A DNA stretch of 64,000 bases from Hanleya hanleyi. Lineage: Eukaryota; Mollusca; Polyplacophora; Lepidopleurida; Hanleyidae. Numbering within the stretch: the first letter of the stretch is position 1; each line of letters begins with the position of its first letter. Both the position numbers and the translations under genes were made by a program. The DNA is taken from assembly GCA_036873755.1 (NCBI GenBank), contig JAVTVY010017357.1, positions 1-64,000 of the forward strand, given 5' to 3'. Below the pieces are notes generated by a model. That model saw only the letters and a program-made list of their open reading frames with translations. It had not been told where the DNA came from and did not search any database. Positions 2,515-45,264 of the stretch are shown one piece after another.

Positions 2515-2660
2515 GCTGGTCAGGCAGGCAGGCAGGCAGGCAGGTCAGGCAGGCAGGCAGGCAGGCAGGCAGGCTGGCTGGTCAGGCAGGCTGGTCAGGC
2601 AGGCTGGTCAGGCAGGCAGGCAGGCTGGTCAGGCAGGTCAGGTAAGTCAGAGAGCTCCGC
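2515..2660. repeat. CAGG/GGTCAGGCA simple-repeat leader of polB
   Basis: Dense CAGGCAGG units interspersed with CTGGTCAGG. On the - strand this is a CCTG-rich 5' leader between the TATA box and the polB ATG. A shorter copy lies at 2,990-3,020. The CARD gene at 13.5 kb has a similar CCTGCC-rich leader. Confidence 0.85.
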
Positions 2661-2701
2661 AAGGTAGTGCAATGAATACACGCAATCCACTAAAAATCAC
2701 C

Positions 2702-2711
2702 TCCTTTTATA
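2702..2711 (-). promoter_or_regulatory. TATA box of polB, proximal copy
   Basis: On the - strand the sequence reads TATAAAAGGAG. It sits about 220 bp upstream of the polB ATG. The surrounding segment of about 95 bp (2,635-2,730) is duplicated almost exactly at 3,015-3,110, giving two candidate core promoters. Confidence 0.7.
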
Positions 2712-2721
2712 CGTTTTTCTC

Positions 2722-3490
2722 ATGCCGCCATGTTGTACACCGCCATCTTGTATTACAACATGGCCGCCAATGCCGCCATCTTGTACACCGCCATCTTGTA
2801 TTACAACATGGCCGCCAATGCCGCCATCTTGTACACCACCATCTTGTATTACAACATGGCCGCCAATGCCGCCATCTTGTACACCGCCATCTTGTATTAC
2901 AACATGGCCGCCAATGCCGCCATCTTGTACACCGCCATCTTGTATTACAACATGGCCGCCAATGCCGCCATCTTGTACACCGCCAAATAGGCAGGCAGGC
3001 AGGCTGGTCAGGCAGGTCAGGTAAGTCAGAGAGCTCCGCAAGGTAGTGCAATGAATACACCCAATCCACTAAAAATCACCTCCTTTTATACGTTTTTCTC
3101 ATGCCGCCATCTTGTACACCGCCATCTTGTATTACAACATGGCCGCCAATGCCGCCATCTTGTACACCGCCATCTTGTATTACAACATGGCCGCCAATGC
3201 CGCCATCTTGTATTACAACATGGCCGCCAATGCCGCCATCTTGTATTACAACATGGCCGCCAATGCCGCCATCTTGTATTACAACATGGCCGCCAATGCC
3301 GCCATCTTGTATTACAACATGGCCGCCAATGCCGCCATCTTGTATTACAACATGGCCGCCAATGCCGCCATCTTGTATCTTGTATTACAACATGGCCGCC
3401 AATGCCGCCATCTTGTATTACAACATGGCCGCCAATGCCGCCATCTTGTATTACAACATGGCCGACAATGCCGCCATCTTGGTCCCACAC
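2722..3490. repeat. Tandem array containing GCCGCCATCTTG (YY1-type) units
   Basis: Two blocks of tandem units of about 33 and 51 bp each contain GCCGCCATCTTG, often followed by TATTACAACATGGCC. The reverse complement CAAGATGGCGGC matches the established YY1 consensus AAnATGGCGGC. More than a dozen copies are present, just upstream of the polB promoters. Long open frames here are repeat artefacts. Confidence 0.9.
3081..3090 (-). promoter_or_regulatory. TATA box of polB, duplicated distal copy
   Basis: A second TATAAAAGG on the - strand lies in a direct duplication of the proximal promoter segment (2,635-2,730 versus 3,015-3,110). It could drive a longer leader that includes the first repeat array, or be a silent duplicate. 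Confidence 0.55.
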
Positions 3491-7264: not shown

Positions 7265-10200
7265 CAATTCTTGTTATCGCGATTTCTCAGGAACTACTGC
7301 ATGGATCTTTCTCAAATTTGGTACACAGGTTCCCCTTGGGGTCTAGTTGTGCAAGATACCTTTTTGGTCCGATTCGAAAATCCAATATGGCCAACAGGCG
7401 GCCATCTTGGATTTCCCCATGAAACCTTGTTATCGCGATTTCTCAGGAACTACTGCATGGATCTTTCTCAAATTTGGTATACAGGTTCCCCTTGGGATCT
7501 AGTTGTGCAAGAAACCTTTTTTGGTCTGATTCGAAAATCCAATATGGCCACCAGGCAGCCATCTTGGATTTCCCCATGAAACCTTGTTATCGCGATTTCT
7601 CATGAACTACTGGATGGATCTTTCTCAAATTTGGTACACAGGTTCCCCTTGGGGTCTAGTTGTGCAAGAAACCTTTTTGGTCTGATTCGAAAATCCAATA
7701 TGGCCACCAGGCAGCCATCTTGGATTTCCCCATGAAACCTTGTTATTGCGATTTCTCAGGAACTACTGCATGGATCTTTCTCAAATTTGGTACACAGGTT
7801 CCCCTTGGGGCCTAGTTGTGCAGATACCTTTTTTGGTCTGATTCGAAAATCCAATATGGCCACCAGGCAGCCATCTTGGATTTCCCCATGAAACCTTGTT
7901 ATCGCGATTTCTCAGGAACTACTGCATGGATCTTTCTCAAATTTGGTACACAGGTTCCCCTTGGGGTCTAGTTGTGCAAGAAACCTTTTTTGGTCCGATT
8001 CGAAAATCCAATATGGCCACCAGGCAGCCATCTTGGATTTCCCCATGAAACCTTGTTATCGCGATTTCTCAGGAACTACTGCATGGATCTTTCTCAAATT
8101 TGGTACACAGGTTCCCCTTGGGGCCTAGTTGTGCAGATACCTTTTTTGGTCTGATTCGAAAATCCAATATGGCCACCAGGCAGCCATCTTGGATTTTCCC
8201 ATGAAACCTTGTTATTGCGATTTCTCAGGAACTACTGCATGGATCTTTCTCAAATTTGGTATACAGGTTCCCCTTGGGATCTAGTTGTGCAAGAAACCTT
8301 TTTTGGTCTGATTCGAAAATCCAATATGGCCACCAGGCAGCCATCTTGGATTTCCCCATGAAACCTTGTTATCGCGATTTCTCATGAACTACTGTATGGA
8401 TCTTTCTAAAATTTGGTACACAGGTTCCCCTTGGGGTCTAGTTGTGCAAGATACCTTTTTGGTCCGATCGAAAATCCAATATGGCCACCAGGCAGCCATC
8501 TTGGATTTCCCCATGAAACCTTGTTATCGCGATTTCTCAGGAACTACTGCATGGATCTTTCTCAAATTTGGTACACAGGTTCCCCTTGGGGTCTAGTTGT
8601 GCAAGAAACCTTTTTTGGTCGATTCGAAAATCCAATATGGCCACCAGGCAGCCATCTTGGATTTCCCCATGAAACCTTGTTATCGCGATTTCTCAGGAAC
8701 TACTGCATGGATCTTTCTCAAATTTGGTACACAGGTTCCCCTTGGGGCCTAGTTGTGCAGATACCTTTTTGGTCTGATTCGAAAATCCAATATGGCCACC
8801 AGGCAGCCATCTTGGATTTTCCCATGAAACCTTGTTATTGCGATTTCTCAGGAACTACTGCATGGATCTTTCTCAAATTTGGTATACAGGTTCCCCTTGG
8901 GGATCTAGTTGTGCAAGAAACCTTTTTTGGTCTGATTCGAAAATCCAATATGGCCACCAGGCAGCCATCTTGGATTTCCCCATGAAACCTTGTTATCCCG
9001 ATTTCTCATGAACTACTGTATGGATCTTTCTAAAATTTGGTACACAGGTTCCCCTTGGGGTCTAGTTGTGCAAGATACCTTTTTCGGTCCGAATCGAAAA
9101 TCCAATATGGCCACAAGGCAGCCATCTTGAATTTCTCCATGAAACCTTGTTATCGCGATTTCTCATGAACTACTGCATGGATCTTTCTAAAATTTGGTAC
9201 ACAGGTTCCCCTTGGGGTCTAGTTGTGCAAGATACCTTCTTTGGTCCGATTCGAAAATCCAATATGGCCACCAGGCAGCCATCTTGGATTTCCCCATGAA
9301 ACCTTGTTATCGCGATTTCTCATGAACTACTGGATGGATCTTTCTCAAATTTGGTACACAGGTTCCCCTTGGGGTCTAGTTGTGCAAGAAACCTTTTTTG
9401 GTCCGATTCGAAAATCCAATATGGCCACCAGGCAGCCATCTTGGATTTCCCCATGAAACCTTGTTATCGCGATTTCTCAGGAACTACTGCATGGATCTTT
9501 CTCAAATTTGGTACACAGGTTCCCCTTGGGGCCTAGTTGTGCAGATACCTTTTCTGGTCCGATTCGAAAATCCAATATGGCCACCAGGCAGCCATCTTGG
9601 ATTTCCCCATGAAACCTTGTTATTGCGATTTCTCAGGAACTACTGCATGGATCTTTCTCAAATTTGGTATACAGGTTCCCCTTGGGATCTAGTTGTGCAA
9701 GAAACCTTTTTTGGTCTGATTCGAAAATCCAATATGGCCACCAGGCAGCCATCTTGAATTTCCCCATGAAACCTTGTTATCGCGATTTCTCAGGAACTAC
9801 TGCATGGATCTTTCTCAAATTTGGTACACAGGTTCCCCTTGGGGCCTAGTTGTGCAGATACCTTTTTTGGTCTGATTCGAAAATCCAATATGGCCACCAG
9901 GCAGCCATCTTGGATTTCCCCATGAAACCTTGTTATTGCGATTTCTCAGGAACTACTGCATGGATCTTTCTCAAATTTGGTATACAGGTTCCCCTTGGGA
10001 TCTAGTTGTGCAAGAAACCTTTTTTGGTCTGATTCGAAAATCCAATATGGCCACCAGGCAGCCATCTTGGATTTCCCCATGAAACCTTGTTATCGCGATT
10101 TCTCAGGAACTACTGCATGGATCTTTCTCAAATTTGGTACACAGGTTCCCCTTGGGGTCTAGTTGTGCAAGATACCTTTTTCGGTCCGAATCGAAAATCC

Positions 10201-11275
10201 AATATGGCCACAAGGCAGCCATCTTGAATTTCTCCATGAAACCTTGTTATCGCGATTTCTCAGGAACTACTGCATGGATCTTTCTAAAATTTGGTACACA
10301 GGTTCCCCTTGGGGTCTAGTTGTGCAAGATACCTTTTCCGGTCCGATTCGAAAAACCAATATGGCCACCAGGCAGCCATATTGGATTTCCCCATGAAACC
10401 TTGTTATCGCGATTTCTCAGGAACTACTGCATGGATCTTTCTCAAATTTCGTACACAGGTTCCCCTTGGGATCTAGTTGTGCAAGATACCTTACCTGGTA
10501 CGATTTGAAAATCCAGTATGGCCACCAGGCAGCCATCTTGGATTTCCCCATGAAACTTTATTGTCATTTCTCAGGAACTACTGCATGGATCTTTCTCAAT
10601 TTTGGTACACAGGTACGCAATCGATATGCAAGATGCCTTTTTCGGTGCGAATCGAAAATCCAATATGGTCACCAGGCAGCCATCTTAGACTTCCCCATGA
10701 AATTTTTTTATCATGATTTCTCAGGAAGTACTGCCTGGATCTTTCTCAAATTTGATACACAGGTTCAATTGTGCAAGATACCTTTTCTGGACCGATTCCA
10801 AAATCCAATAAGGCGGCCATCTTGGATTTCCCCATGAAACTTTGTTATTGCGATTTCTCAGGAACTACTGCATGGATCTTTGTTAAATTTGGTACACAGG
10901 TTCACCTTGTCGTCTAGTTGTGCAAGATACCTTTTCTGGTCCGATTCGAAAATTCAATATGGCCAACAGGCGGCCATCTTGGATTTTCCCATGCAAATTT
11001 GTTATCGTGATTTCTCAGGAAGTACTTCATGGATCTTTCTCAAATTTGGTACAACGGTTCCCCTTATGGTCTAGTTGTGCAAGATACCTTTTTGGGTCCG
11101 AATCCAGAATCCAATATGGCCAGAAGGCGGCCATCTTGAATTTCCCCTTGAAACATTGTTACCGTGAATTCTCAGGAAATATTTCATTGATCTTTTTGAA
11201 ATTTGGTACACAGGTCCCACATGGGGCCTAGTAGTGCAAGATACCTTTTTTGGTCTGATTCGAAAATCCAAGTTA
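7265..11275. repeat. 157-bp tandem satellite, about 25 copies
   Basis: The unit begins ACCTTGTTATCGCGATTTCT and recurs at exactly 157 bp (for example 7,424 and 7,581). Each unit contains CTCAAATTTGGTACACAGGTT and GGCAGCCATCTTGGATTTCC. Copies are most alike in the middle (7.4-10.4 kb) and drift from about 10.45 kb onward, where several carry deletions. 157 is not a multiple of 3, so open frames across units are chance. Confidence 0.96.
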
Positions 11276-11558: not shown

Positions 11559-12589
11559 CAACTGTAGACTACTGCATATAAACAGAACAGAATTAGCATT
11601 CGTTCTTAATTATAAAATCTTAAGTATGTTTCATAGCTCATGCCAAAGTGTCAAAGAGATTGGTCTTCGCTTCCAGTACCCAATGATGACACGTGCAAAA
11701 ATATAAATAAATAAAATACTACGAAACAAAGGCGAAGAATTTTCCGTACATGTACATTCACTTTCAGACTAACTTTGCTCATTTCTCTTGTATTATAACA
11801 ACCGACATAAGTACAGTTTCTAGAAATCTTGAAACTCCTGAAACTTAGATTATATCTTGGTGTTTTTCAGTGGCCTTTTCTGATCCTTTTCGCTCAGATT
11901 CGTTTGTTCTTAGTAACAATGGACAAAAAGATCCTCTAGTCATTAGCTTACAATTATCGGACAATGGTGCGCGCCAAGATCCTTCAGGATCTCTCGTAAT
12001 ATCTGTCCAACCTGATATAATTTACTGGCTTACCTATTCATAAATGCGTATTGGCTAAGATCACATTATGCCTTGTATATATACTTTGCGTATGGAGCTG
12101 TTTGTAACTTTGTTCACTGCTGAAGATGCTATAACTAATAGCAAAATATACAGAATAAATTGTGATTCCTACTCGGAGTTGCTTTTCTTCTCTACAATTG
12201 AAGTAAAATGGTGTGTTCTTGTGCATTTTGACAGAATATTTAGACTTTGAAGATGATATGTAATGATGCCCCAAAATGAACTGAATTTTCCGTGTCATCT
12301 GTCTGTCTGTCTCTCTGTTTGCCCATCTTTCATGTCATACCAGATGTGCAGCTGGTGATGGATCAGAAGCCTAATGAAATTGACTGACCTTCACCTGTTT
12401 TATCGAGGTCAAATTTAGCATTAGCAATAAGTTTTAAAGGAGTGAAGATTGGCTCTCCAAATTCATAATACTTGTGCAATTGGTGACTGACTAGAAGCCT
12501 ATCCCAGTTGACTGAATCTATTTTCTCAGGTTATATACTGTAGTAGTAGTATTAACACGGGAAAGGTCGCATTGACCCCTTTGCACTTA
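11559..12589. other. No gene seen
   Basis: AT-rich sequence with a short TCTGTCTGTC run near 12,297. Nothing is recognised on either strand. Confidence 0.5.
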
Positions 12590-13020
12590 AACTTGAGGCG
12601 TTGGCGCTGGAGATTGGAAAGTGACCTCTGCCAGAGTTTGGCCGCCATCTTGAATTTGGTAAAAAAACTTGACCAATGTGGCAGCGGTTTAGTCTGTTGA
12701 ATTCGGATACAAGGTCACGTGACCTTTGGACATGTCCAGACTTGTCTGTGTCGCGTGACCTATGACGTCACTTCCGGTATGGGTGAATGGAGCGTGACCT
12801 CTGGTGAAAACCATATTGACCTCGGGGAAGTACGGAGCGTTGACCTTTGACCTTTGCGTGGCCGCGTACCGTGCAGTATATTGATCTTGGAGGCGGAGTA
12901 CTATTAGGGTTCAAGTGATCGGGTTGTGGGGCCGAATAACACCTCTGGGTGGGGAGGAAAACAGTCCGCGAGAAAAAATAGTGCGGCGAACCAATAGGGC
13001 GGATCTGTATTGAATCCATT
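12590..13020. repeat. Polinton TIR-like remnant upstream of the CARD gene
   Basis: It contains ACATGTCCAGACTTGTCTGTG, TGACGTCACTTCCGG, GAATGGAGCGTGACCT and GGTCACGTGACC. The E3 TIR (51,090-51,170) carries nearly the same motifs in a different order. This suggests the CARD gene lies next to the terminal repeat of a related element whose remainder is not recognisable here. Confidence 0.55.
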
Positions 13021-13142
13021 TAATACATTTAAACATTTAAAACGTTAATACATGTAAAATGGGCTTACCTTGACGTGTCCAAGTTTTATAAGTGGCTGGG
13101 TGTCCGTCCTATAGGCTCTGTGCATATTGGATTGCATCAGCA

Positions 13143-13292: not shown

Positions 13293-13301
13293 GTTTTTCG
13301 C

Positions 13302-13309
13302 TATAAAAA
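13302..13309 (+). promoter_or_regulatory. TATA box and CCTGCC-rich leader of the CARD gene
   Basis: CTATAAAAAGGGG lies 190 bp before the ATG at 13,491. The leader (about 13,379-13,470) is rich in CCTGCCTCCAGCCTGCC units. This arrangement of a TATA box and a CCTG-rich leader matches polB at the left edge. Confidence 0.75.
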
Positions 13310-13490
13310 GGGGTCCGTTTTCAAGTCGGTACCAACATTTTCACTGACCACCCGAAGCTATCGACCACACCACTGCCAGCCTCTAGCCTGCCTCCAGCCT
13401 GCCTGCCTGCCTCCAGCCTGCCTAACGGACCTGCCTCCAGCCTGCCTGCCTGACCACTGCCCGCCTACTATCCAACGCTGTGCCGGAGCC

Positions 13491-14693
13491 ATGGACTCAC
13501 TCGACCGAGCTAAGCTTTTACAGCACCGTATCAATATCATTGACGAAATGCAGCATGCGGCCGACATATGTGATCTCCTCATGATGGAAAACATAATCAC
13601 TAAACACAGTGGGGAAGATATCATGGCGGAGAAAACCTATATGGCACAAAACAGAGCCATCCTCGACCTGATACCATGCCGTGGTCCGTTAGCATTTCAC
13701 ACCTTCCTGGAGGCGCTGAAGAAGACGGGGAATGAAGGAATAGCGTCTCTACTTCAACCCCAGGAAAACACCTTAGTCATAGACACCCCGGAAGAGAATA
13801 GACATACCAAACGTGCCCAGGAAGAACCCGGTCCAACTGCCAAACGTGCCCGTCTCCAACTTACACCTTTAAAAATAGGCCAGCAAGCAGAGGGAGAGGT
13901 CCAGTCGTTACTCCCCGTGTCTGCGCAGCAGGTGAATGGTATCGTCCAACAAGCCTACGAAGCGGCCCGTTGCGCAACGCTCTCTCAGTGGGAACTTTCG
14001 CCAAATTTGACAGTGACAGTAAAAGACCAATGCATCCATTTCGACGTTCCAGCCTGCGAAGAAAAGCCAGCCAAGCATATTTCAATCACAGCTAACGTCT
14101 GGGAGAAAATTATAGCTCTGTACGAGACCATAGACTCGCTCATCGATATGCAAGGAAAAGACGAAGTGAAATTTTTCGCAGAAGAAAATATCTTTCTCAG
14201 TTATACACTTTTCCACGATGTGGTGTTGGTCCATCTGCGCAAATGGAAACGTGGAAAAAACAAGTGGTTTCCGCAAACTGAGGGCGTGACGCTGCATTTA
14301 CACGCATGGAATACACTGAAAGAGTTAACACCAGCCATTTCTGAATCGCTGACTGGAGATATCATGCAAAAATTATCCAGCTTATTGTTCGACACTTATA
14401 TGGATGAACTAATGCCGTACATTCGAGCGATACGCATGGAACAATGTGCCGGATGTCAATATAAATCATTCAGTCAAATCGAGCATGAGTGTGTGGGACT
14501 GTTTTTAACAGAGGAGATTTTGAAAGAAGCAGTACAGGAGAGTGATGAAATACAAATCTTGGAGAAGTTTCAAACCCGATGCCCAGCTAGAATTCCACGC
14601 CCCCACATACACGCTTTCCTCTCACAACACAGCTCAGATAAGCAGAAGGGTCATTTCCAAAAACGGTTGCTCGATAGATATTTACAATTCTGA
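13491..14693 (+). CDS. CARD - tandem PC4-like - Cys/His protein (400 aa)
   Basis: The start is the ATG in GCCGGAGCCATGG, a strong Kozak context; the frame is open further upstream but that lies in the promoter. Residues 1-88 read as a caspase-recruitment (CARD) death fold, with the helix pattern and RGPLAFHTFLEAL typical of caspase and IAP CARDs. Residues 107-121 (KRAQEEPGPTAKRAR) look like a bipartite nuclear signal. Residues about 168-220 and 224-290 each end in the strand-turn-helix pattern of PC4/p15 single-stranded-DNA-binding domains (ISITANVWEKI; GVTLHLHAWNTLKEL). A C-x2-C-x9-H-x-C cluster is at 319-334. No intron is evident; a possible AATAAA is at 15,026. The family role of CARDs is apoptosis and innate signalling; PC4-like domains bind DNA. 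Their combination here is inferred to link DNA binding with host death signalling. Domain assignment is by eye. Confidence 0.85.
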   Translation: MDSLDRAKLLQHRINIIDEMQHAADICDLLMMENIITKHSGEDIMAEKTYMAQNRAILDLIPCRGPLAFHTFLEALKKTGNEGIASLLQPQENTLVIDTPEENRHTKRAQEEPGPTAKRARLQLTPLKIGQQAEGEVQSLLPVSAQQVNGIVQQAYEAARCATLSQWELSPNLTVTVKDQCIHFDVPACEEKPAKHISITANVWEKIIALYETIDSLIDMQGKDEVKFFAEENIFLSYTLFHDVVLVHLRKWKRGKNKWFPQTEGVTLHLHAWNTLKELTPAISESLTGDIMQKLSSLLFDTYMDELMPYIRAIRMEQCAGCQYKSFSQIEHECVGLFLTEEILKEAVQESDEIQILEKFQTRCPARIPRPHIHAFLSQHSSDKQKGHFQKRLLDRYLQF

Positions 14694-14699: not shown

Positions 14700-17578
14700 A
14701 TACACACTCAGAGAGAGAGAGAGGGAGAGATATTTCCGTGTTGGCTGTTTGTTGACGTTTTATATCCAAGTCACTAGGCCAAATGTTGCGATGTTGCAAC
14801 ATTTTAAGACACTTGTTGCAATCGCGGTAAAATGTCGTGACATTTTAACACACTTGTTGCAACACTAGGTTACATTGTATACATTTGTTGCTCTTCTACT
14901 ACGCTACCGTAAATCAATTACATATTTATAATCGCCCGGCGTGGAAGTAAATGCCTGTAGGAATTATCAGATCGCTATTATCGAGAATAGAAAAAAAAAT
15001 GTTCATTCTTCTGTGTTGTTGTTAAAATAAAAATGGCTATTATTTATGTGTTTCAAGTCTCATGCTTCAACAGTAACTTAAATCATGCTGTATCGGCTGA
15101 GCTGTTGAAATAGCCTTCATTTCCTAGCTCTGACATACTGCATCACTGTCGAAATATGAGTACCAAGACAGAGTGATAGATCACACAGCCAGTGAAGGTT
15201 CCCGATTTACACTGAATGTCGTTATAGTCTAAGGAGTATTAGCAGCATTTTACAACAACAACAATTCGCTGACTTACAGTGAAAAATTATAGTGAAAGGT
15301 ATGTATTTTTTGTTGTTTGGCATTTTTATTTGCTGGCATTGTTTCAGATAGAATACAACAGCCTAATTCATACAATCAGGAATAAAAAGGGGGTTAAAAT
15401 GTTCAAACTTTCGTAGGAAATATAAAAGTGGCAATTTGAAATTTTATTTTTATTCGATTTTTTAATGTCGGTGGGCCCATGAAACGCAAAATAAAGTTGG
15501 TATTGCCTCACCCTGGGTTTCAACCATTGGTGAAGAAATCCTTTCTATCAGGGATGATTCCTGGTTGCTCATCCTGCAGGAGTATCTGCCCCCCACTCTG
15601 TCCCATCCTACAAACAATTGCCACCCCTAATAGGGGGTGTGCCCAAATTGGGGAGATCTAAAGCCCTGTGAGTACCAAATTATGTGTTACAAAATTGTCT
15701 GGGGAAATGCTCTTCGCCCGTGTTTCACACGAGCTTTCATTTCAATTGTGTCCAAAATCATTGCTTCAAAATTTCGTCGGGAACCATGACAAAACCTATT
15801 GGAAATCACATGAGTCGAGGGTTCCCCATATGACAATTATTTGGCGGGAGATTTCACGTTGCATTCCTAGACGTCCGTCTGATCGACGGAGGAAAAAACT
15901 CTGGTGATCTTTAGACCGTAATTTTCAATGAATGACGTCATCCTGACATCATAATCATCAAATAATTTTACTAACTGAAATTTTCTGAAACGTTGACAAT
16001 GTAAAACACTGAACAGATACAATTCTGACAGGTATACGCCTGGAACGACTCATTCATTAGCATTTACCACATGTATCAATTGTTTGTGTTATTTTTTGAA
16101 GTTATTACGTCATCACGACGTCATTACATGCACCCATGTGGTGTTTGAGTGAAAAAAAATGGTGCTTTTGTCCGCCGTGTAACTATTATTTCGCTATCTC
16201 ACTCCACTATATTTGAGCTGATGCATTTCTTCTAAACGTGAAATTTTAATAAATCTGTTGGGTTTTCACTCGCGTGTATTCATAGGCGGAACTCGACCAA
16301 GCACTGATCTTGCATCTTTGCGGTCAATATCCTAATTTAAATACTCCATAACTTCAGTCCACAGAACAGTCCCCCGATCGTCTCCATATATTCTGGAATT
16401 CCAGATTTTCTTCTGATCGCATCAGTAACCATCACAAGTAACCATCAGTAACCATTCCATTCGGAACCATCGAGCGGAAATCTACCAACAGGACCGATCT
16501 TTCACTCGGGGACTCGCAACATGAATTTCCTGTGAATTCACCAGATGTGATGCACCGGAATCGCCTAGCACGCATGACGCAAAATCAAACTACTAACGCG
16601 AACGCATGAATCGTCTATCGGCAAATTGTACACTATGGATCCAAATTTATATCGAAAATACTATAATCATATCTGATATGAACCATGGAAATATAATATC
16701 ACGAAGTAATAGCTTTAACACCAAACAGGTCGCATGTTTAAGTTGTTTAGTCCCAGTGATGGCATAGTTTATTTTCAATTCTGCCAGTTGAACGTCACTC
16801 CTAACAACATGAATCACATGGCCTCTTGCTGATACAATATGGTGCATCGTATTCGATGGACTATCTGTCACCGGAGATCCCCGAGAAGTTGCGAATATCT
16901 GCCACCGGAGATCCCCGAGATTGCACCAGTACTGTACCTAGTACTGCTTGAATGCAATTCTTCGTGGTCCAGTTAGCCCCCAAATTACTCATATACGCTA
17001 AATTAATGATGTAATTATTTATCTAAACTGTTATTTTTATTCCACTCTACTTGTATGGGTGGTCAAACTTTGGAAAAGTATTAAAACATATTCCAAACCG
17101 GTCAATCAATTCAAGCCTGTCAATATTGCTGACGTAACAGAGGTGACTATTTTGTCCTCTTTCAAAAAATTTGAAAGAATTGAAAAAAGTCTATTGTTCT
17201 CAGTACATATTAAATTATGTATTTCCATAGTTTTTAGCCAATTGAAAATTCCATTGAGGATACCGTTTAATACAACCTGTAATCATTTCGGTAAGACCAT
17301 TTTATGGATGGCGAAGTGTACGCAAATGCCTTTAATAAAGTAGCTTGAGAATATATAGCTAGATGTGATGCGTGAAAACAGCTTTTATAACATTTTTCAA
17401 GGGTGGCCAGACTCAGAGGAGGGACCCAGGGTCCTTCACTGGCACAGGAAGTTGGAAAAATATAATTCTGGCGAATTTGGAGGAGATATCGGGCAACATT
17501 CGTGACAATTATATTTTTTTCTATTTATACCACATGGTAATAATGTACAACTTGCATGCTACTTTTTACCATATCCAG
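14700..17578. other. No gene recognised before the alkaline phosphatase exon
   Basis: It holds a GA run (14,709-14,730), a GTTGCAACA-rich inverted stretch (14,780-14,870), and a segment at about 16,150-16,210 that is an inverted copy of 4,676-4,760. A short duplication of CCACCGGAGATCCCCGAGA is at 16,870-16,920. No exon of the alkaline phosphatase could be identified here by eye. Confidence 0.45.
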
Positions 17579-26360: not shown

Positions 26361-28006
26361 AGAAAGCGTATCTGGAGCCACATTGACCTTTGACCTCTCA
26401 GTGCATTTTGTGACGTCAATTCCTGTTCCGGTCACGTGACCAGAAGTGGCGTTTGACCCCTGCGCATGCGCACAATACCGTATAGTTACGGTGCGCAGAT
26501 GAAGGGTCACTTGTGGTCAAGCGACCGGAACCGGAGTTGACGTCACAAAGTGCATTCAGAGGTCAACGGTCAATGTGACTCCAGATACGCTTTAGATCAC
26601 GAAACCTGGCTATTAATACGAGGGTCAACGAGGGTGTGCTATATTTATCGCACCAATACTACTTCATTTACTCTTTGGGGTTACACGTCTATGAGGATAA
26701 AGTCATGGAGGGCATCTCCCATCCACTCTACCCATACACGTTGGTGGAATATTAAAAACAACATAACCTATAGGTGATGTACGATGTTATTATTACGTGC
26801 CTATGATCACTGCGACCACAGGTTCGAGCGTTTCATGTCCACTATCTCTCCACCATTTATAACAAAATTAAATAGCGGCTCTTGCTTTGGGAATTTTCCT
26901 TTCGACATCGATCGTGCTGCCATCTGGATGCGAGGAAGACACCTCTGACTGGGCGAAAACCGGGTTATCTCACCTGATTCGAACATTTGCGCTTCTGAAT
27001 AGGTTAGAATTTGCCTTTGAGTTATTTCCAGGTTAAAATGTCCGGACATGTCCGGTGACGTCACGTCTAGGTCAATAGGCCTCCAGATTCCCTTCAGTTA
27101 AGTGACATTTCCGGAGATGCATGTTTGGGGTAGGAGTATTCAAGTAAGGGTGATCATTTTTCTTCTTCTGGACTTTACTATGGAGTGTGGCGCCTTGTTT
27201 TCTCTGTCCCACCACGTCGAAGACGATGGGAAGGGTCTCGATGCCATGGAGTGACTTTCGCTGAAAAGGTCTGAGTGCGCATACGTACCCCATATGCAGG
27301 CCTGTTAGGGATATTTTGGGATCGAGGTGGCCCACTATTGTTCCGATTGGGCCGTACGAGGTGTCATAGTGAAGCACTCGTGAAGGAGCATCCGACTGGA
27401 AGGGTGTGGCGTGGAGCTGACGTCATACTGCGCATGTGCAGTAAAAAAGGGCACTGGAATGGACGTTTTGGGGTCTAGGTGGAACACTACTGGTCCGATT
27501 GGGCCGTGGGAGAAGTCATAGTGAAGCATCCGTGGAGGGAAACACGACTGGATGAGTGTGGCGTGGAAATGACGTAATTATGCGCATGCCCAGTAGAAAA
27601 AAAATGCATGAGAATGTACGTTTTGGGGTCGAGGTGGACCACTATTGGTCTGATTGGGCCGTGGGAGATGTCATAGTGAAGCACTCGTGGTGAAGCATCC
27701 GACTGCATGAATGTGGCGCATGCACAGTAGAAAAAGGGCTTAGAAATGGACGTTTTGGTTTAGAGATGGTTTATCCTTGCTCCGAATGGGCATGCGGACT
27801 GGTCAAAAGTCACTTTTATCACTGCGCAGGGGCAAAATATCACTTCCGATCAGGTGTCCGGAACCGGAAATGACCTCACAAAGGTCCCAGGCAAATTTCC
27901 AAGATTATTTTGACCTTTAATGCACCTTCCAAGGCTCAAGAGGCGCCTAAGTGCCCTTCTGGAACCTGGCGTGGGGCCCAGCAAGAGTTGACTGCTACTG
28001 AATACG
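26361..28006. repeat. E2 left terminal inverted repeat
   Basis: It pairs with 36,192-37,909. From outside in: a 231-bp palindrome; a segment with ATGTCCGGACATGTCCGG and GCAGCACGATCGATGTC; about three tandem units of roughly 150 bp with GGTCCGATTGGGCCGTGGGA, AGTGAAGCA and TGCGCATG (27,290-27,720); then GGTCCGGAACC-type and GGAACCTGGC segments. Palindromic sites TGACGTCA, GGTCACGTGACC and TGCGCATGCGCA recur. Confidence 0.85.
26363..26593. repeat. 231-bp near-perfect palindrome at the E2 left end
   Basis: It starts AAAGCGTATCTGGAGCCACA and ends with the inverse TGTGACTCCAGATACGCTTT, with the centre near a TACCGTATAGTTACGGTG stem. Both arms carry TGACGTCA, CCGGTC and TTGACC. The whole segment can form one long hairpin. 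Confidence 0.85.
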
Positions 28007-28313
28007 ACTGTTTTTGTCTTTCAGTTACTTTAATGTTAACTGACATGTACGGAAAAAATGCAGCAAGAGTTATCTGCCCCTGAATATGACTGTATATCCA
28101 ATTTTAATCTCCCGGAATGCTCGGCATCAAGCATGGTACCCGACAAAATACGCCAGCATAAATGCCAAGTGTGGAACCCTTCTTTTCTCCACATGTTCCA
28201 TACCGAGAACCTGAGACATGGAAATTGCACCGAATGAGTCGCTTGAACCAAGGCTTCTCTAGGGTAGTGTGAATAAATAGGCTGGTCATGCGCAACCGGA
28301 CGAACCAATACAC

Positions 28314-28321
28314 TATAAATA
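28314..28321 (+). promoter_or_regulatory. TATA box of the E2 PC4-like pseudogene
   Basis: TATAAATACGGCG lies 57 bp before the ATG at 28,371, the same arrangement as in E3 (TATAAATACGAGG, ATG about 50 bp downstream). Confidence 0.7.
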
Positions 28322-28370
28322 CGGCGATCAGTGACGTTGTGGGTCATTCATCTCGCGCCATTTGGTCAGC

Positions 28371-28916
28371 CATGTCGCCAGTCCTACGAGCGCTCCTTTC
28401 CCTTACACTCCAGGTGGGTATACACGTCCATGAGGATAAAGTCACCATCGTGGAAGATTGGGATATTTGCAGGTCGGGCCCGGAGTCCATATCGAATACG
28501 GTTACGCTATACCGTGACGACTGGACCAAATTTGAACGGGTGTTGAGCGGTGAGCTCGATGGTGCCCCATTCCGCGTGGCGAATGCCATCTACGTACACC
28601 GTGGTCCCTTCTTCGCGCGCCTGGACGTTACCAGGACCAAAAGCGAAGCTTCATCCCAGAATGTGATCTGTGCACAGCCTTCGAGAAGGTGGTGTCTATT
28701 GTGAACCAGCTGTTTCCACCGGAGGACCGGTCAGCTGTTCAGTGGGCCTTGTCTCGTGCTATTGAGGACGCACTGGCCGAGTCCAATGAGCAAATTATCA
28801 ACCACGAGGAGGAAGACGAGAGGGACTATCCGGTTCTCATCTGCGTCACCTATAAAGATGTCCTGAATAAACTTAACATCCGTATTCCACCGTCGTCGGA
28901 CGACGACGCCATATAG
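28371..28916 (+). pseudogene. PC4-like protein 1, frameshifted E2 copy
   Basis: It begins MSPVLRALLSL, matching the E3 protein at 60,558. Similarity holds through WTKFERVLSGELDG and IYVHRGPFFARL, then the frame shifts near 28,622. The C-terminal part continues in another frame from about 28,625 to the stop at 28,914-28,916 (AFEKVVSIVNQLF, acidic tail). It is the best preserved E2 gene, with essentially one break. Confidence 0.85.
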
Positions 28917-29324
28917 ATTACCCGTGTATACTTAGTCGACCCAGTGGCAATCGCATCCATACAACGGAGGCCGGTACGGCGTTAGAACCCGAATGAAAGC
29001 ATCCAGAAAGGAACTTCGAGCCCCGCGCCAGATATTCACGGATAATATGGGATGTACGTTTCATTTTGCTATCCTATGATACACCATATTCAAGGCTAAT
29101 AAATAGAGTAGATTTTTAGGACTGTACTCACTTACCTTAAGACAAGCGACGTGAAAGGTTCCACCCACCGCTCGCCAGGAATCCAGTCCCCACTGAGAAG
29201 GGCAACTTTAATACAGATCCCGACGAACCGCCCAAAGAGGTGTTACCGATAGAGGAAGCTTATGTGACTGAAATGATCGATCACTCGATCCTTTGATCTC
29301 ATTCCATTGGCATTTCCTCCTTAT

Positions 29325-29722
29325 AAATACGAGGGAGAGTCACATCTTGTGCTTGACCCCGATGTCTTTCTGTACGTATATGCGCATAAGGTCGATATCA
29401 TGGAGGACAGAGACATCTGTGATGCGTACCCTACACAACCGCGCCCGGTTAACATTCGTTTTTCCATGGAGGGCTGAACCAAATTCAAACGGGTGTTGTC
29501 TGGTGAACTGAACGGCTACCTCATCCACTTGTGTCACGATGTGTACATTCTACGCGACCCCTTCTTTGCTCAATTGTCTCGGCTAGATGAGGGTACAGTG
29601 CATTTTATCTTTCATCCTGTTCTTTGATCCGCGTTGGAAGATGCCGTGGCGGGTGTGGATCAGGTGCTTACAGAGGAAGCGCGGTCATCAGACGATTTGG
29701 ACTGGCCATTTACCATATAAGA
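29325..29722 (+). pseudogene. PC4-like protein 2, E2 copy with stops
   Basis: TATAAATACGAGG at about 29,321 precedes it. Frames encode matches to the E3 protein at 59,979 (YVYAHKVDIMEDRDICDA; LIHLCHDVY; DLDWPFTI). The N terminus is shortened, in-frame stops occur near 29,477 and 29,626, and at about 29,722 it runs straight into integrase sequence. A deletion has removed the integrase 5' half. Confidence 0.8.
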
Positions 29723-29724
29723 TG

Positions 29725-30420
29725 TGCTGGCAGTAGCTGCGTTCAAGGGCATCTTCAAGACGGGTCGCAAGTCGTTGTATTTGCAAACCGACGAAGGCAC
29801 GGAATTCCTCAACAGGCTCTTCCAACAGTTCTGAAATGCCAGAAAGTGTTCTTCTTTCACGCGTACAACGAGAGGAAGGCATACGTTGTGGGAAGGTTCA
29901 ATCGGGCGTTCAAAGGCCGCATGTACAAATATTTCACCCACAAGAATACAAGGCGATACATCGATGTTCTTCCAAACTTTCGGCTGGTTATAATCGAGCC
30001 TACCACTGGAGTATTGCGAGAACACCTATCACCAATACCAAGCACAAAGAATATCGAGTTCGGCGTATCTTGTACCCCATGCAACACCAACCACGATCGA
30101 AGGAGGTGTTCAAGATCGGGGACCCTGTCAGGATCAGTAAAATCAAGAGCAATTTTGAGAAGAGTTACCTCCCCCAATGGAGCGATGAGCACTTCGTGAT
30201 TAAACGCCGCATACTCCGACACCCGCGAGTATATGAACTGGAGGATCTTTAAGAGGAACCGTTACCAGGAACGTTTTACGAGCAAAAATTACAGCCCGTG
30301 GAGAAAACAGGCCAAGACTAAACCGACCGACGCCGAGGCAAGACGGTGCACCTCGTAAAATGGCAAGGCTGGCCCAGTTCCTTCAATTCAGGGACTCAGG
30401 CAACCAGATGAAACTGCTAT
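29725..30420 (+). pseudogene. INT: Integrase, 5'-deleted E2 copy
   Basis: It starts in the middle of the integrase core (AAFKGIFKTGRKSLYLQTDE, second catalytic Asp retained). The first Asp and N-terminal region are missing. Frame changes and stops follow (near 29,833 and 30,250). The C-terminal chromodomain segment is recognisable as WQGWPSS near 30,365-30,385. Confidence 0.85.
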
Positions 30421-30478
30421 AAACCCGCGAACAACAGCCAGTAGCGATCATTCTACGTTCGACCATGAACACGATACT

Positions 30479-30935
30479 ATGGACAAACAGCACCTGCCTC
30501 TGAATCAGCGTATCCAGAAACGTGCAAATGATAAGTGAACTATGTGGTGACATTGCCAACCCTGCTGGGCATTTTATATGGGGGTGTGTTTTACGACGTG
30601 GCATAGCTCAACACTCATCTCATCCAACCAAAGACACAACCACCAGCCGTGAGTGCAGGTCACACGAAATTATAGACCCCCTCCACGCTAGCGCTAGTCA
30701 AACCTCGTCTGGCCCCAGCAACCACCACACCGAGTATACAGTCCAGGTCAGCATCGAGTCCCACATCAAGTATTGCAGCGACCACTACGCCAGAAACCCC
30801 GCCATATACGACCATCTACGGTGAACGCACTAACGTAACCACAACGGTACCAAGGCTCTCTACACACACCAGTGATCCGACGACAGCGAACTCGGTTCAC
30901 TCGTACCAAATTTACAAGAGCGGATTACCATGACA
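30479..30935 (+). pseudogene. Membrane protein, degenerate E2 copy
   Basis: It begins MDKQHLPL, matching the E3 start MDQQQLPL at 58,352, and ends with VHSYQIYKSGLP. Frame breaks and stops lie between; the membrane segment is largely destroyed. Confidence 0.7.
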
Positions 30936-31190
30936 GAGAATACACCTCCAACCACGAACTCCCGGTGGCAACACCTCTTCCCCTGCCTCTTTGCTGGGTC
31001 GAAAGACTCACTTCGTCTAGAAACTTGCTCAACACGCCGACAGCATGATTACCCCTTCCATTGCCCAGGCCATGTGGTGTTACCGAAAATGGCAAGCGGT
31101 ATATTGAGCAATGACAAACATCACGTTCATGGACGTCCTACCCAACCTAAACGATTTGAATCCGGACACTTCAGCCGGCATGGACGATCT
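30936..31190 (+). pseudogene. ATP: Packaging ATPase, degenerate E2 copy
   Basis: RWQHLFPCLFAGSKD corresponds to the E3 ATPase start at RWQHPFTCLIAGPTG, but the Walker A lysine region is lost. Only scattered blocks remain before the sequence jumps to the next gene near 31,190. More than half is deleted. Confidence 0.75.
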
Positions 31191-31194
31191 CATA

Positions 31195-31340
31195 GGAGAG
31201 ACGAAACCCTGGTCCGGAAGCGAGTCCCACAAGCACAGAAGAATAAAATCTAACAGAAAGGCGGCTTTCCCGGTGCGATATTAGCTCCCTTGGCTGCTTC
31301 CGTATTCGACCATCTACTCGCTGGTCTCTTCAGTCGATAA
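31195..31340 (+). pseudogene. Hydrophobic-tail protein, E2 remnant
   Basis: It shows KRVPQAQKNKI, a stop, then KGGFPGAILAPLAASVF, matching the C-terminal half of the E3 protein at 56,819-57,163. Confidence 0.8.
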
Positions 31341-32442
31341 TGAACCACACGAAAATACTAGTCCACATCGAACCACGCCTGATTCAAAGCCCCCAATCGC
31401 CGTTTCCGATCCCACCTACGGTGAAGACGATCAACACACCCGATCACGAGATGCAACAGATTCTACAACGACTTTGGTTAAGCGACAGTGATAAAGTACA
31501 ACAGTACAATCAGACGCTTCATCGGTATATCACGTTCGTGGGGCAAAACAAGGCCCCTGAACCAAGCCCAGCGTCAGTCGCAGAGCCAGCACAACGTGTA
31601 CCGCCAACACCAGTTGTCCTACAGTCGCCATTACCAGGTTACAAGCGTCTGGTCCGTCATTCATACTTCAGCCGTCGTCCATTAGAGAATATCCGCGTCC
31701 ATAATCCAAAGACCTATTCCATATTCCATATAACAGTATTAGCACCAAATTCAAAAAGACAATCATAGTATACATAGACATAGGCTTGTTTCCTGCAAGA
31801 GAGAAGCTGTCAACAGTTTTCAATGATGCCGGCAAGACATCATGATGTTCCAAAAATATCAAATCTGTATCGCTGATCAGTATTCTTAATCCATAATAGT
31901 CGTTGTAAAGTCGTCATCTAAAGAATCATGTATCTCAGTCACGCTTTGATTGTGACTGTTCATATGAGTACCATAAGGATCTTGAAGTACATGGGTTCAT
32001 ACGGCCCCTAGCCCCGGGTTAAGCGGAATTAGACACAAGTTACGAGTTACGACTTGATGCGTCAACCGAGGTCACACACGGATCCTCAATGATGGGAGGT
32101 GTTTGCCCAAGCATTGAAAGACGTGCATGTACCGTAGGAAGTGGCGAGGATCCCCCAGCGCTGGGCCTGGATGCAGCGTGACATGGGACAGCAATCTCCG
32201 GTACACGCACCCCGGAATTCACAACAACAGACTCGAACCCCACGGACCTGGAAAGGCGAGTGGAATCTTAACTCACCGCACACAACACCACAATGGATAC
32301 GCTCCTTACGGAAAGCTTTCACACTCCTTAAAACACCACCCCTGGTCAATACACCCACGTCTCCAGAACGGTGACACGTAGTAAGTCAACGCGACGATCA
32401 CGACGCAGGAAACAAGGTCTCAAAGTCTGGCAACACTATTAA
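31340..32442 (+). pseudogene. Proline-rich protein, E2 copy interrupted by an insertion
   Basis: The N-terminal part (31,340-31,640) matches the E3 279-aa protein (MNHTKILVHIEPRL; a TVKTINT block). The C-terminal part resumes near 32,050 (LMRQPRSHTDPQ, stop; QRWAWMQRDM). Between them lies a repeat of about 320 bp (31,640-31,965) found twice more in the window, plus some 80 bp of degraded sequence. Confidence 0.8.
31640..31965 (-). repeat. Dispersed repeat with small membrane-protein frame, copy 1
   Basis: It begins TTACAAGCGTCTGGTC and ends near CACGCTTTGATTG. On the - strand it is open for MIFLEHHDVLPASLKTVDS, continuing to MYTMIVFLNLVLILLYGIWN (one membrane helix) and a short C-terminal tail ending at 31,668. 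Other copies are at 37,945-38,345 (- frame) and 39,720-40,030 (+ frame). Confidence 0.75.
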
Positions 32443-32475
32443 AACCAACAGCGGCAACAGGAAATCTCAGTCGTC

Positions 32476-33125
32476 ATGTTTTACTTCACACTACCCAGTA
32501 ATATCTCGGCTGCGGTGTTTCCCAACAACAGCTTAGCCCATTATATCACACAGCTGCAACATCCATTACATTCCCCAGGGACTTTGGGAGTGTGACCTAA
32601 TGGGTATACAGTACACGTATACGTGGTACAACGTGCAACACGATAAGGTGTGGTATGAAATCTTGCACGAAGGCAACACCTATAACTTCACACTTCCCCA
32701 AGGCCACATCAAGGCCACATGAAGATTTCATCAAGAGCTTGAGCCCTGGAGGAATCAATATCTTCTCCTTTGCGAACGCGATCCGAATGGAGTACCACAA
32801 GTGGAACCACAAGTTCCTGATCATCCTCCAAACCAATGTGCACCGTACGTTTCATCAAGACGTTGAAGGAGCTGTGTGCACTAGAGAAGAATAACTATCT
32901 CGGGCCCGGTGGGATCCAGAGGAAGACCATGCTGCATATTAAGGTTGGCTTGTTGATATGCAAAGGGACTGGGAAGATCAGGTCACAATGCTTTAGCCAC
33001 GTACTCTGTCCATCGAAGCGACAGATTGACATCCGTACCATCACCATCGATATACGAGGTGACACCGGACAAGATCTGGCGTTCAAAATTGGGACAAACT
33101 TCATTTTCGACAGGCATGCTCTCCC
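32476..33125 (+). pseudogene. mCP: Penton-like minor capsid, degenerate E2 copy
   Basis: The start MFYFTLPSNISAAVFPN parallels the E3 gene at 55,949. Stops and frame changes occur from about 32,600, and the C-terminal block (RQIDIRTITIDIRGDTGQD, near 33,020-33,080) is still clear. The middle is deleted or scrambled. Confidence 0.85.
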
Positions 33126-33149
33126 AACTTTGTATAATGAAGGTACCTT

Positions 33150-33530
33150 AAGAGTGCGATGCACACGGACTATTATACCCAACAGGCCGGTGGCGGCCTT
33201 CCTGTCTTTGCAGGTACATGCATCCAACGAGGTCATGGGCTGGGGAAACTACGCAGAGTATCGTCAAAACGTTCCTGCCCCTGGTGACACGTGGGGTAAA
33301 AGCGGTCGGAAAACAAGCGGTCCGAAGTGGGGTACAAACACTGGGAGATGCGTTCAGCGGTGTCCCCGTCCGAGAGGCATTGAAACGCCCGAGTCAAAGA
33401 AGCAGGAGGTGTCTTGGTCGCCAAAGCATAACGCACCGTATGGAATAAAAGACCTGCACCACCGAGAATGCGCACCAGTTAACGACCGACTCATCGAGGA
33501 CGCACATCGAAGACTCGGGATATCTTTGCG
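33150..33530 (+). pseudogene. Basic core protein, E2 copy
   Basis: SIVKTFLPLVTRGVKAVGKQ and VREALKR match the E3 protein at 54,755-55,162. The upstream frame is broken near 33,240 and the C-terminal basic tail is scrambled. The sequence then runs into capsid sequence. Confidence 0.8.
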
Positions 33531-34790
33531 TAAACATGTCCTGCCCTCCACCAACAGTGAATGCGGATACGGCCTATGTGGACTCAGCCCATATGTACTT
33601 GTATGTGAAAGCCAAAATCTTCAAGGGGGATAGCTCCAGAATCGACCTTGCAACGGTGGGCCCAACGAATCTCTGGCTGCACTCTGTTTAAACAGGGTGG
33701 ATATTTTTCTGAGCGACAAACTTATCAGTGACTCTACCAACACGTACCCATATCGAGTCTAGATCTAAACGCTGTTGTTGTATGGGCGAGAGGCTAAAAA
33801 ATATTCGTTGACAGCCTCTGTATTCTACCGGGACACACCCGAAAACATGGGCACGGAGCACGACAACGCGGGATGGAACAAACGGAAGGGATACACCGTG
33901 AACGGCAGCTCGGTCGATCTCATCGGCCGATTGCACGCACTCCTTTTCATGCAAGACTAGTACCTCTTGAACAAGATCCCCATCAAAATCCGACTGATAC
34001 GGGTGCCCTGACCTTCGACTTGATGGCCACTGACGTAGACGGTTACGCAGCTGACTATAAGGGGGAACTGCCCAAGCGATTGACCCTCGCCTGTGTGAAG
34101 AATACCAGTTTCAGTGGAGCCTACTTGGAGAACCCATTTGACTTTAAACATTTCGGCATCAATTTTGTGGCCTACATGTGGACTGACAACAGGTCCCACC
34201 CATTGCCTTAACACTAAACGTTGGGCGCGAGAATTTCACTCGAGCTTATGAGAGCCATAATGTGATGTCTAGCACTGTAATATCACTTGTCTTTATTGCA
34301 CCATGTAAGCGTACTGTCTGTGTGTTGTGCGCTGTCCTCAGTGTTTTATAGGGTGGATGGAAGGTGTCTGGTTTCATGCTGCTTCAAAGATTTCTTCTTT
34401 GAAGTAGCAGGAACACAACTGGGCTGGGTGGTGCTTAGTTGGTTCGTCCTGATATAGCTGAAATATTGTTGAAAGCGACGTTAAATTCTATTCACTCACT
34501 CGCTTATAAGAGCCTGTTTACAGCGACCGGTCAAATCAACGAGGATGAAGGATGAATATGATCAGTCGGAAGGACTACGCTAACGGATACACGTTGTTCT
34601 GGTTCGATCTGACCCCCACGTTAAAGAACGACCATCAGCTGAACCTCGCCAGGCAAGGCAACTTACGGCTGTAAATCCACTTTGCACGAGCCCACGGGAA
34701 TAACATCAATATGATATGCTACTCCGTGTTTGAAAACATCGGACAAGCGGACAAGGCGCGCAACGTCATGTTTGACTTTGCCATCCAACA
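33530..34790 (+). pseudogene. MCP: Major capsid protein, E2 copy broken by a SINE
   Basis: Recognisable blocks are NADTAYVDSAHMYLYVKAK, ATVGPTNLWLH, LLYGREAKKYSLTAS and VKNTSFSGAYLENPFDFKHF. The order matches E3. The 5' end, a central block and the frame are lost, and a SINE of about 240 bp sits at about 34,259-34,496. The last block ends near 34,788, just before the protease ATG. Confidence 0.88.
34259..34496 (+). mobile_element. SINE insertion with CACTCACTC tail and target duplication
   Basis: The inserted segment ends GAAATATTGTTGAAAGCGAC, then GTTAAATTCTATTCACTCACTC. The target is duplicated as GCTTATGAGAGCC on the left and GCTTATAAGAGCC on the right, within major capsid coding sequence. 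Tail and duplication fit target-primed retrotransposition of a SINE; a clear tRNA head is not seen. Confidence 0.75.
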
Positions 34791-35082
34791 TGGATACAGA
34801 TCAGAATACCGCCGTGCTGGAGAATGACCTAGGGACACGCACTATCTTTCAAGAAATATTCTCCCGTTAGACCGTGTGTATCCTGCCACATACGTCCTCA
34901 ACACGGAAACGATGGATCGTCCCGGTCAACATTGGGTGGCCATGTACTTGACTGAACAGCAGGGCGAATACTTTGATCTGTACGGACTTCCACCACTCCA
35001 TTCCTACCTGATGGACTTCATGGACGAAGGCAAAGAGACGTGGTGTTGGAACAGTCGAGCGTTGCAAGGCCTGAGCAGATAG
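34790..35082 (+). pseudogene. PRO: Adenain-type protease, truncated E2 copy
   Basis: It starts MDTDQ and retains RPGQHWVAMYL (putative catalytic His), GEYFDLYGLPP and WCWNSRALQGLS, then stops at 35,080-35,082. Early residues are frameshifted. The C-terminal third with the catalytic Cys is gone. Confidence 0.85.
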
Positions 35083-35089
35083 GCCAGTC

Positions 35090-36191
35090 AGTGAGTAAGC
35101 TGGGAAAGCAGCCAACCTGTGGCCTAGGATGGGGTCAAATTAACCAATCAATGTTCAGAAAACAAACCAATGCAAGGGCACTGCCGTAAAACAGAAAGCC
35201 AATGAAATCATCCCACAGACCAAGTACATGAGGAAGGGCCATGGCAAGTTACAAGAGCAACAGGAGGAGTGAAAAAAACTATAGGTTTCGAGGTGCGGGT
35301 AAAGACCAGAAAGACGGCGAAAATGTCCAAGGCAGGTGTCCGACCACCGATGCAATGCCCAGAGGTGATATTGACAGAAATCCGAGGTGGGGCAACACGG
35401 ATGATGAGCATGTATAACCCCGAAAGAGTGAGGACCGTCTACCTGGATTGCGGGGGAAAAATCAGACCACCACCCTCCTGAGTACCGGTACTACTCGACA
35501 TCAACCGGGTAGTACGTCAGTCCATGCCTCCAATGGATTCTTCCTAAACAGTGAGAAAACATGCTAAAATCACCCAAAGGCCCTGTTTAGGACAATCAAT
35601 CTTTGCGAAAGAGAACTTCTTGCTAAGCGCAATGCGAAGCCCCACACCCTCACACCCCATTACCCTAGGGAACCACGAGTCCATGCGACTCATTTGGTGC
35701 AATTCCCATGTCTTTGCTTCTCGATATAGGATGGAGAAAAGGAGGGTTGTCATTTATGCTGATCATATACCTGGTGATATTGTCGGGGTTCGTTTTTGAT
35801 GACGTGCATTCCGGAAGATTAACCTTGATGAACTACAAACCCAGACCAGTGCTAGTGGGACAAAAAAGGGCTTACGTGTCGTCCAGAACCAGATACGCTC
35901 CTACACCCAGCAGCGGGACGCCTTCACCTTCTTTTACCCCAAGCGCAAAGTTATTCAAGGCGGTCTGACGACGACGTATCTGAATATTTAGATTGATGGG
36001 TAGCCTAAAAAATGCTAAAGTAAAGGTGAACTTACACTGCAAATATTCCACTGGACATCTGTCGTTGGTGTTATAATAAGGAGAAATAACTGTTTAAAAT
36101 ATATTGTGTTCTCTGTGGTGAAAACAAAACCTGGCTTTTCCTACAACAATGTGATTTGGTTATGTTGTAGGCCGTAGTTAACCAGTTTATG
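35090..36191. other. E2 interior beyond the protease, no known gene
   Basis: About 1.1 kb with no counterpart in E3. A frame at 35,708-35,968 (+, 86 aa) has a hydrophobic stretch (MLIIYLVILSGFVF), then a Ser/Thr/Pro-rich tail. Another at about 35,269-35,481 lacks an ATG at its start. Both are unassigned and may be remnants of a cargo gene. Confidence 0.4.
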
Positions 36192-38515: not shown

Positions 38516-38860
38516 GGAGAGGTAGAGAATATGATGGAGAATTCGAGAGTAGTAGGGAAATCGTAAATTCCCGAGTACTGAGGCTGAGGCTAATGTGGCA
38601 CGTGGCGTGACGTGGCGATGACGTCTCGGATGACGTCACTTCTGGTTACATCACTTCCGGTCAAAGGGCACTTCCGGTTCAAAGGTTATTTCAGGGTCAA
38701 AGGTCACTTCCGGTCACGTGACGGCCCAGCAAGTGTTATCTGCCCTTACATGAGACCCCTGTGGACTTTTTTCTTGTGGATTTTACTATGGGGTATGGCA
38801 CCTTGTTGTCTTGTCTCGCGATGCAGAACACGAGGCCATGAGTTGAATCTGATCTGAAAA
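38516..38860. repeat. E4 left terminal inverted repeat
   Basis: Inverse of about 45,790-46,160. It is rich in CACTTCCGGT, GGTCAAAGG, TGACGTCAC and GGTCACGTGAC. Confidence 0.7.
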
Positions 38861-39184
38861 GATCTGATGACGCATGCGCATCAGTTAAGATCACGCTCCT
38901 AACATATCATCGCATGCGCCCGCACTTTTGTTGCGCTCGAACCCTGGTTTACCCTATGCCCTACGGGCTATAGGGCACAGGGTGCACCACAGGTACGGGC
39001 GCATACGTGCGATGACGTCACTTCCGAGCTCCAAGAGCTCCTAGCTCTTAACTGATCCATCCCACAGCCCCGAGCTCTGTAGTTTCTGAAAGAGCGACTT
39101 CTGATTGGACAAGAGCAGCCGAGAATACACCTAACGAACAAGAACAAATATGACAGGTACGAGATAAAATGGGTGTACCACACA

Positions 39185-39460
39185 TGCGTTAAGGCGTTAC
39201 TATATCGCGTTAAAGCTTTAAACAAAGGCGTTAAGATAAGGCGTTAAGAAAGGGCGTTAATGCGTTGAGACAGACGTTGAGGCGTTGAGGTGGGTTTTAA
39301 GGCGTAGCGATGGGCGTTAAGGCGTAACGACGGGCGTTGACGGGCATCACTGCATTTCGATGAATTAGTGTCATTTCCATGGAATATCTAGAAAAAATAA
39401 GAGCTTCTGAGCTATTTCACCAGGGCGTTGAAGCGTTAAGGTGGGCGTTGACGGGCGTTA
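39185..39460. repeat. GGCGTTAAGGCGTTA-type degenerate repeat
   Basis: Units of 8-20 bp built on GGCGTTA or GGCGTTGA. A second block in the same orientation is at 41,150-41,260. No function is evident. Confidence 0.7.
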
Positions 39461-40030: not shown

Positions 40031-40040
40031 TCAGGAGAGC

Positions 40041-40549: not shown

Positions 40550-40573
40550 ATGTGATGGAGGGGATAATGAACT

Positions 40574-45255: not shown

Positions 45256-45264
45256 AAAGAACTA

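Follow-up and report, generated by a model that had tools for sequence, protein, structure and literature searches.

Viral CARD proteins are already known, and those found among the literature matches listed are small ranavirus proteins. The protein GIV-CARD of grouper iridovirus, a ranavirus, is described as an early, anti-apoptotic protein of 91 residues that becomes nuclear and that has been likened to human ICEBERG (PMC4457926). Polinton (Maverick) elements provide a second point of comparison, as the regions by their terminal repeats hold diverse proteins according to a study whose main text contains neither the word CARD nor the word PC4 (PMC8097293). Neither a CARD-PC4 fusion nor a Polinton CARD is among the literature matches listed, which come from a coverage that leaves out most subscription journals. 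Here we describe a 64,000-nt window (positions 1–64,000, to which all coordinates refer) of contig JAVTVY010017357.1 from the mollusc Hanleya hanleyi, in which an intact gene, referred to below as CARD-PC4, joins a CARD to a PC4-type domain next to a Polinton-type terminal sequence.

Like GIV-CARD, the product of this gene is a CARD protein apparently encoded by a viral-type DNA genome; it is set apart by its length of 400 residues, its caspase/RAIDD-like CARD, its PC4-type stretch and its CCHC cluster. The CARD is similar to those of CED-3, RAIDD and caspase-9, but no caspase or death-domain match follows it and a PC4-type partner is found instead; this partner matches the PC4 profile at its cut-off and differs from PC4/Sub1 in being fused to a CARD. 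As with the accessory genes of Maverick/Polinton elements, the CARD-PC4 gene adjoins a terminal repeat, whereas core genes were not found beside it. The reading that we tentatively prefer, with confidence somewhat short of even, is that CARD-PC4 is an early accessory gene at a truncated Polinton end and that its product is a nuclear CARD decoy, which would block the assembly of host initiator caspases where the DNA of the element is copied. An early accessory gene of a truncated Polinton is likely because the intact gene adjoins a Polinton-type terminal sequence, and sitting on single-stranded DNA (ssDNA) while occupying host CARDs would be the likeliest action in view of the predicted nuclear signal, the PC4/Pur-like units and the CARD without an effector match. 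The features of the locus are as follows:

12542..13060, plus strand: Polinton-type terminal sequence of a probable left end, with AGTAGTAGT at 12542 and a perfect TGACGTCACTTCCGG at 12763; inner limit approximate
13301..13490, plus strand: TATA-to-ATG leader of the CARD-PC4 gene, ATG-free, with CCTGCC repeats
13302..13308, plus strand: TATA box (TATAAAA), 189 nt 5' of the CARD-PC4 ATG
13491..14693, plus strand: CARD-PC4 gene, 400 aa, uninterrupted frame
13512..13760, plus strand: CARD, residues 8–90 (Pfam PF00619)
13809..13853, plus strand: bipartite basic signal KR...KRAR, residues 107–121, read from sequence
13983..14156, plus strand: first strand-strand-strand-helix unit, residues 165–222, PC4/PUR-like by low-confidence fold only
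14184..14324, plus strand: PC4 domain (second unit), residues 232–278 (PF02229)
14445..14492, plus strand: Cys/His cluster C319-x2-C322-x9-H332-x-C334, residues 319–334, read from sequence
15026..15031, plus strand: closest AATAAA 3' of the CARD-PC4 stop

The CARD-PC4 gene is a single open frame without an internal stop, and the stop-to-stop run around it spans 533 codons, compared with at most 260 codons when the 64-kb window was simulated 100 times (first order), which bears out the intact 400-residue frame described in a first-pass annotation of this DNA. Its synonymous codon score against the Polinton genes of the window is near neutral (−0.008) and is higher than those of all 500 base-composition recodings (mean −0.071, best −0.019). 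The ATG at 13491 is the first in frame, none being present upstream, and it stands in the context GAGCCATGG; together with the TATA box, this agrees with the expression signals noted earlier.

The CARD-like N terminus proposed in the same annotation was confirmed by a match to PF00619 (E 8.8e-13; 48.5 bits against a cut-off of 23.9; profile positions 3–84 of 85; E 7.7e-14 when scanned as a fragment), and the nearest relatives of this domain among solved structures are CED-3 (E 5.7e-8), RAIDD (E 2.8e-7) and procaspase-9 (E 2.8e-5). Single-sequence AlphaFold predicts helices within residues 3–88 at a pLDDT of about 35. Caspase, ATPase, kinase and death-domain matches were all absent from the CARD-PC4 protein in Pfam scans. 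The basic stretch and the Cys/His cluster are likewise present in the sequence as first described. The former is presumably a bipartite nuclear signal, and the protein is predicted to be nuclear; the latter, which we take to be a C-x2-C-x9-H-x-C motif, is a possible zinc site judging by its residues, and its region yielded no significant family in Pfam scans of the whole protein and of fragments.

Two PC4-like segments had also been proposed, of which the second stands at the cut-off and the first does not stand as a family match. The score of PF02229 is 24.9 bits in the whole protein, against a cut-off of 25, and 26.3 bits when residues 215–290 are scanned alone; human PC4 (1pcf) matches this unit weakly (E 1). 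No Pfam match was obtained for the first unit in a fragment scan, and no likeness was found between the two units (the score of the pair is equalled or exceeded in 784 of 1000 shuffles). The strand-strand-strand-helix pattern of the first unit is seen in a full-length model and partly in a model of the two units, both of low confidence, and no fold claim is drawn from the full-length model, which was made without an alignment (pLDDT 35.5). When the AlphaFold model of both units (pLDDT 50) is compared with known folds using Foldseek, repeats I–II of human Pur-alpha (PURA) come first and PC4 chains lie within the first 25, none of the matches reaching E 0.001. The Pur-alpha chain in question likewise has two repeats, but the first CARD-PC4 unit is without a sequence match and the fold match comes from a low-confidence model. 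Other folds are possible for the two-unit model because unrelated chains (DUF155-family and cupin-like) score near PURA in the fold search. An absence of the death fold or of the PC4 fold was not observed, but this statement is limited to single-sequence AlphaFold models of low confidence.

It had further been suggested that the PC4-like part resembles two E3 proteins encoded by a Polinton-type element at 50–64 kb of the window, and that CARD-PC4 may have arisen when a Polinton PC4 protein acquired a CARD. These proteins, E3a and E3b, are paralogues (46–48% identity) without a Pfam match, and a profile of the two found no PC4 in the PDB. The resemblance was not established: the E3 profile scores 1.9 bits against residues 165–290, which is reached by 49 of 3000 shuffles; pairwise scores of the same residues are reached by 24 (E3a) and 278 (E3b) of 3000 shuffles; and the probability given by hhalign for the PC4-like part and the E3 proteins is 1.9%. 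Among 8 pairs of units from the CARD-PC4 and E3 proteins, the best score is reached by 3 and the worst by 499 of 1000 shuffles. As the E3 similarity hardly exceeds chance, if at all, the gain of a CARD by a Polinton PC4 protein is left unproven; what holds of the proposed fusion is the combination of a CARD and a PC4-type domain by a Polinton-type terminus, and not its E3-derived origin. A joint alignment of the PC4-like part with the E3 proteins was judged by eye to be misaligned and was dropped before folding.

The Polinton-type terminal repeat reported beside the gene is supported, from 12542 onwards, by AGTAGTAGT, by the counts of TGACGTCACTTCCGG and by blastn matches. Among the terminal motifs of vertebrate Mavericks, (AGT)2 is the most frequent (PMC8097293). 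Allowing up to 2 mismatches, the 15-mer TGACGTCACTTCCGG has 17 copies in the window, compared with 0.07 expected (15 simulations), and the other 16 copies, whose positions were read by eye, all lie within ~1.8 kb of a seen or inferred end of one of three elements that have termini of Polinton type (viz. 26363–37909, 38548–46123, and 49747 to beyond the window). The orientation of the copy at 12763 favours a position of the CARD-PC4 gene on the inner side of the element, because 12 of these 16 copies (counted from positions) are oriented likewise, i.e., on the plus strand when at a left end and on the minus strand when at a right end. A blastn comparison of the terminal sequence with the terminal repeats of the 50–64 kb element (at 51.1 and 62.9 kb) gave matches of 38 nt (E 1.5e-8) and 35 nt (E 7.6e-6), whereas the reversed query gave a single match at E 0.58. 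The motif TGACGTCACTTCCGG recurs in terminal regions at 12763, 26411, 38631, 51097 and 62963, among others; it joins what we take to be a CRE-like and an ETS-like site, and it may be an enhancer of the element. A satellite with 25.7 copies of a 157-bp unit (7270–11271) lies 1.3 kb to the left of the terminal sequence.

Of the 17 CCTGCC sites that the window has on its plus strand, 8 lie in the leader of the CARD-PC4 gene. The sole other dense CCTGCC tract, which is also preceded by TATAAAAGG, is the leader of a polymerase-like gene at the left of the window (17 of 30 minus-strand sites) together with its tandem copy at 2990–3011 (4 sites). When compared with the left polymerase-like leader (the reverse complement of 2487–2711), the CARD-PC4 leader gives a local score of 115. 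None of 2807 random windows reached it (best 32; of 3000 draws, 193 had landed on leader regions and were dropped), nor did any of 1000 first-order resamples (best 63). Common descent of the two leaders appears likely, and it is not certain because the leader is simple sequence. The polymerase-like genes at 3–2486 and 61435–62376 are presumed to be such from their motifs and position; no polymerase match was found for them in Pfam or the PDB, and in PHROGs a DNA polymerase was matched at E 0.2 only. Over 159 residues, the left polymerase-like gene is 53% identical to one of the genes of the 50–64 kb element. The region of its leader (2517–3481) contains a tandem duplication (2610–2977 / 2989–3344) and minisatellites of 48 bp and 33 bp.

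Several observations weigh against an accessory gene of a Polinton. No match better than E 0.1 was obtained between 2.5 and 26 kb in tblastn searches with 12 other element genes, and no polymerase, integrase, capsid or ATPase gene was recognised by tblastn in the CARD-PC4 unit. As seen from the CARD-PC4 gene, the left polymerase-like gene lies beyond the terminal motif, and neither a second terminus (a right end, then TACTGT) nor a 6-bp target duplication for the CARD-PC4 unit was found anywhere in the window. The motif AGTAGTAG is present at 9 sites on both strands of the window, where 38548, 46123 and 49747 are ends recognised otherwise and the five remaining sites besides 12542 are not; hence, AGTAGTAG alone is no proof of a terminus. 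Because the core genes and the right terminus are missing, and because the motif separates the gene from the polymerase-like gene, CARD-PC4 is likely a gene at a truncated Polinton end and not part of an intact element. The missing right terminus, and the fact that tblastn recognised no element gene in the 11 kb to either side, could also be explained if CARD-PC4 were an ordinary host gene by an unrelated, lone Polinton terminus and the fusion an innovation specific to the host lineage. However, the leader matches that of an element gene far better than random windows do, the gene has a single exon, and the terminal motif lies 0.7 kb upstream in the orientation that is commoner at left ends, and we regard this explanation as quite unlikely.

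For the preferred reading as a decoy, the basic stretch would carry the CARD-PC4 protein into the nucleus, where the two PC4/Pur-like units of one chain would pair with each other and hold ssDNA of the kind that protein-primed, strand-displacement copying of an element would expose. The CARD would then bind host CARDs of the CED-3/RAIDD/caspase-9 type and stop the nucleation of a productive complex, and the CCHC cluster may contribute a zinc-stabilised contact. A CARD without a caspase, ATPase or kinase can act as a dominant blocker. With its early expression and nuclear location, GIV-CARD provides an anti-apoptotic example (PMC4457926). CARDs of the caspase-adaptor type presumably also activate, and the frame is uninterrupted though no core element gene lies beside it, as if it had been kept by the host, which counts against a decoy of the element and would suit a sensor. 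In that case the sensing of ssDNA by the PC4/Pur-like part would cluster the CARD and switch caspases on, and the gene would be a captured or adjacent host defence gene or a domesticated survivor; as the terminal motif, the TATA-leader arrangement and the single exon resemble those of element genes, we consider a sensor unlikely, if worth retaining. The PC4/Pur-like part and a leader shared with the polymerase-like gene, which would fit joint expression, are also consistent with a Polinton replication or transcription protein, a PC4-like single-strand binder whose CARD serves for self-assembly only and not for cell death, but the nearest solved relatives of the CARD are caspases and caspase adaptors, and such a role is improbable.

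That an animal virus-like transposon has its own ssDNA-anchored CARD on tandem PC4/Pur-type units, coupling replicating element DNA to a caspase platform, whether to turn it off or on, is a broader proposal that we hold to be possible but rather doubtful. If true, the pairing of a CARD with a domain of DNA-binding type at the end of a Polinton would tie the control of cell death to the DNA of the element; this would fit the view of Polintons as viruses that must manage host death and would provide a concrete gene for that idea.

Searches of a protein collection returned nothing for the whole protein (E ≤1e-3, 2464 candidates), for residues 140–400 (E ≤10, 1435 candidates) or for residues 1–100 (E ≤10, 26 candidates), a result that says little because the CARD alone found none and animal CARDs appear to be all but missing from the collection within its length limits. 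The viral contigs yielded no relative of P0001, E3a, the left polymerase-like gene or the capsid gene, and 0 stretches with the polymerase motif pattern. One stretch of these contigs (L001) has the CARD motif pattern; its translation, judged by eye with no comparison run, looks like a chance motif.

The remaining observations concern other parts of the window. The Polinton-type element at 49747–64000 has a right end that runs off the window. Its rve integrase with a chromodomain is supported by Pfam, its ATPase only below the cut-off, and others of its genes are presumed to be those for a capsid and a protease. The polymerase-like gene at 61435–62376 codes for 313 residues before its stop, which lies 240 nt short of the right terminal repeat of this element. 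Between E3a and the polymerase-like gene, a 108-residue frame on the minus strand (60620–60946) is located behind a TATA box; no significant family or PDB match was found for it, and it looks tail-anchored from the hydrophobic C-terminal tail that its translation carries. A perfect 208-nt direct repeat (52434–52641 / 52943–53150) lies over the 3' end of the protease-like gene. The stretch 26363–37909 is a decayed element with broken integrase, ATPase, capsid-like and E3 gene pieces of the type found in the 50–64 kb element. Finally, 38548–46123 is a 7.6-kb unit with AGTAGTAG ends and terminal repeats that are 81% identical (38543–38763 / 45925–46128); its frames look to us like those of a non-LTR retrotransposon, and it is bordered on both sides by a 6-bp duplication, TTCGAG.
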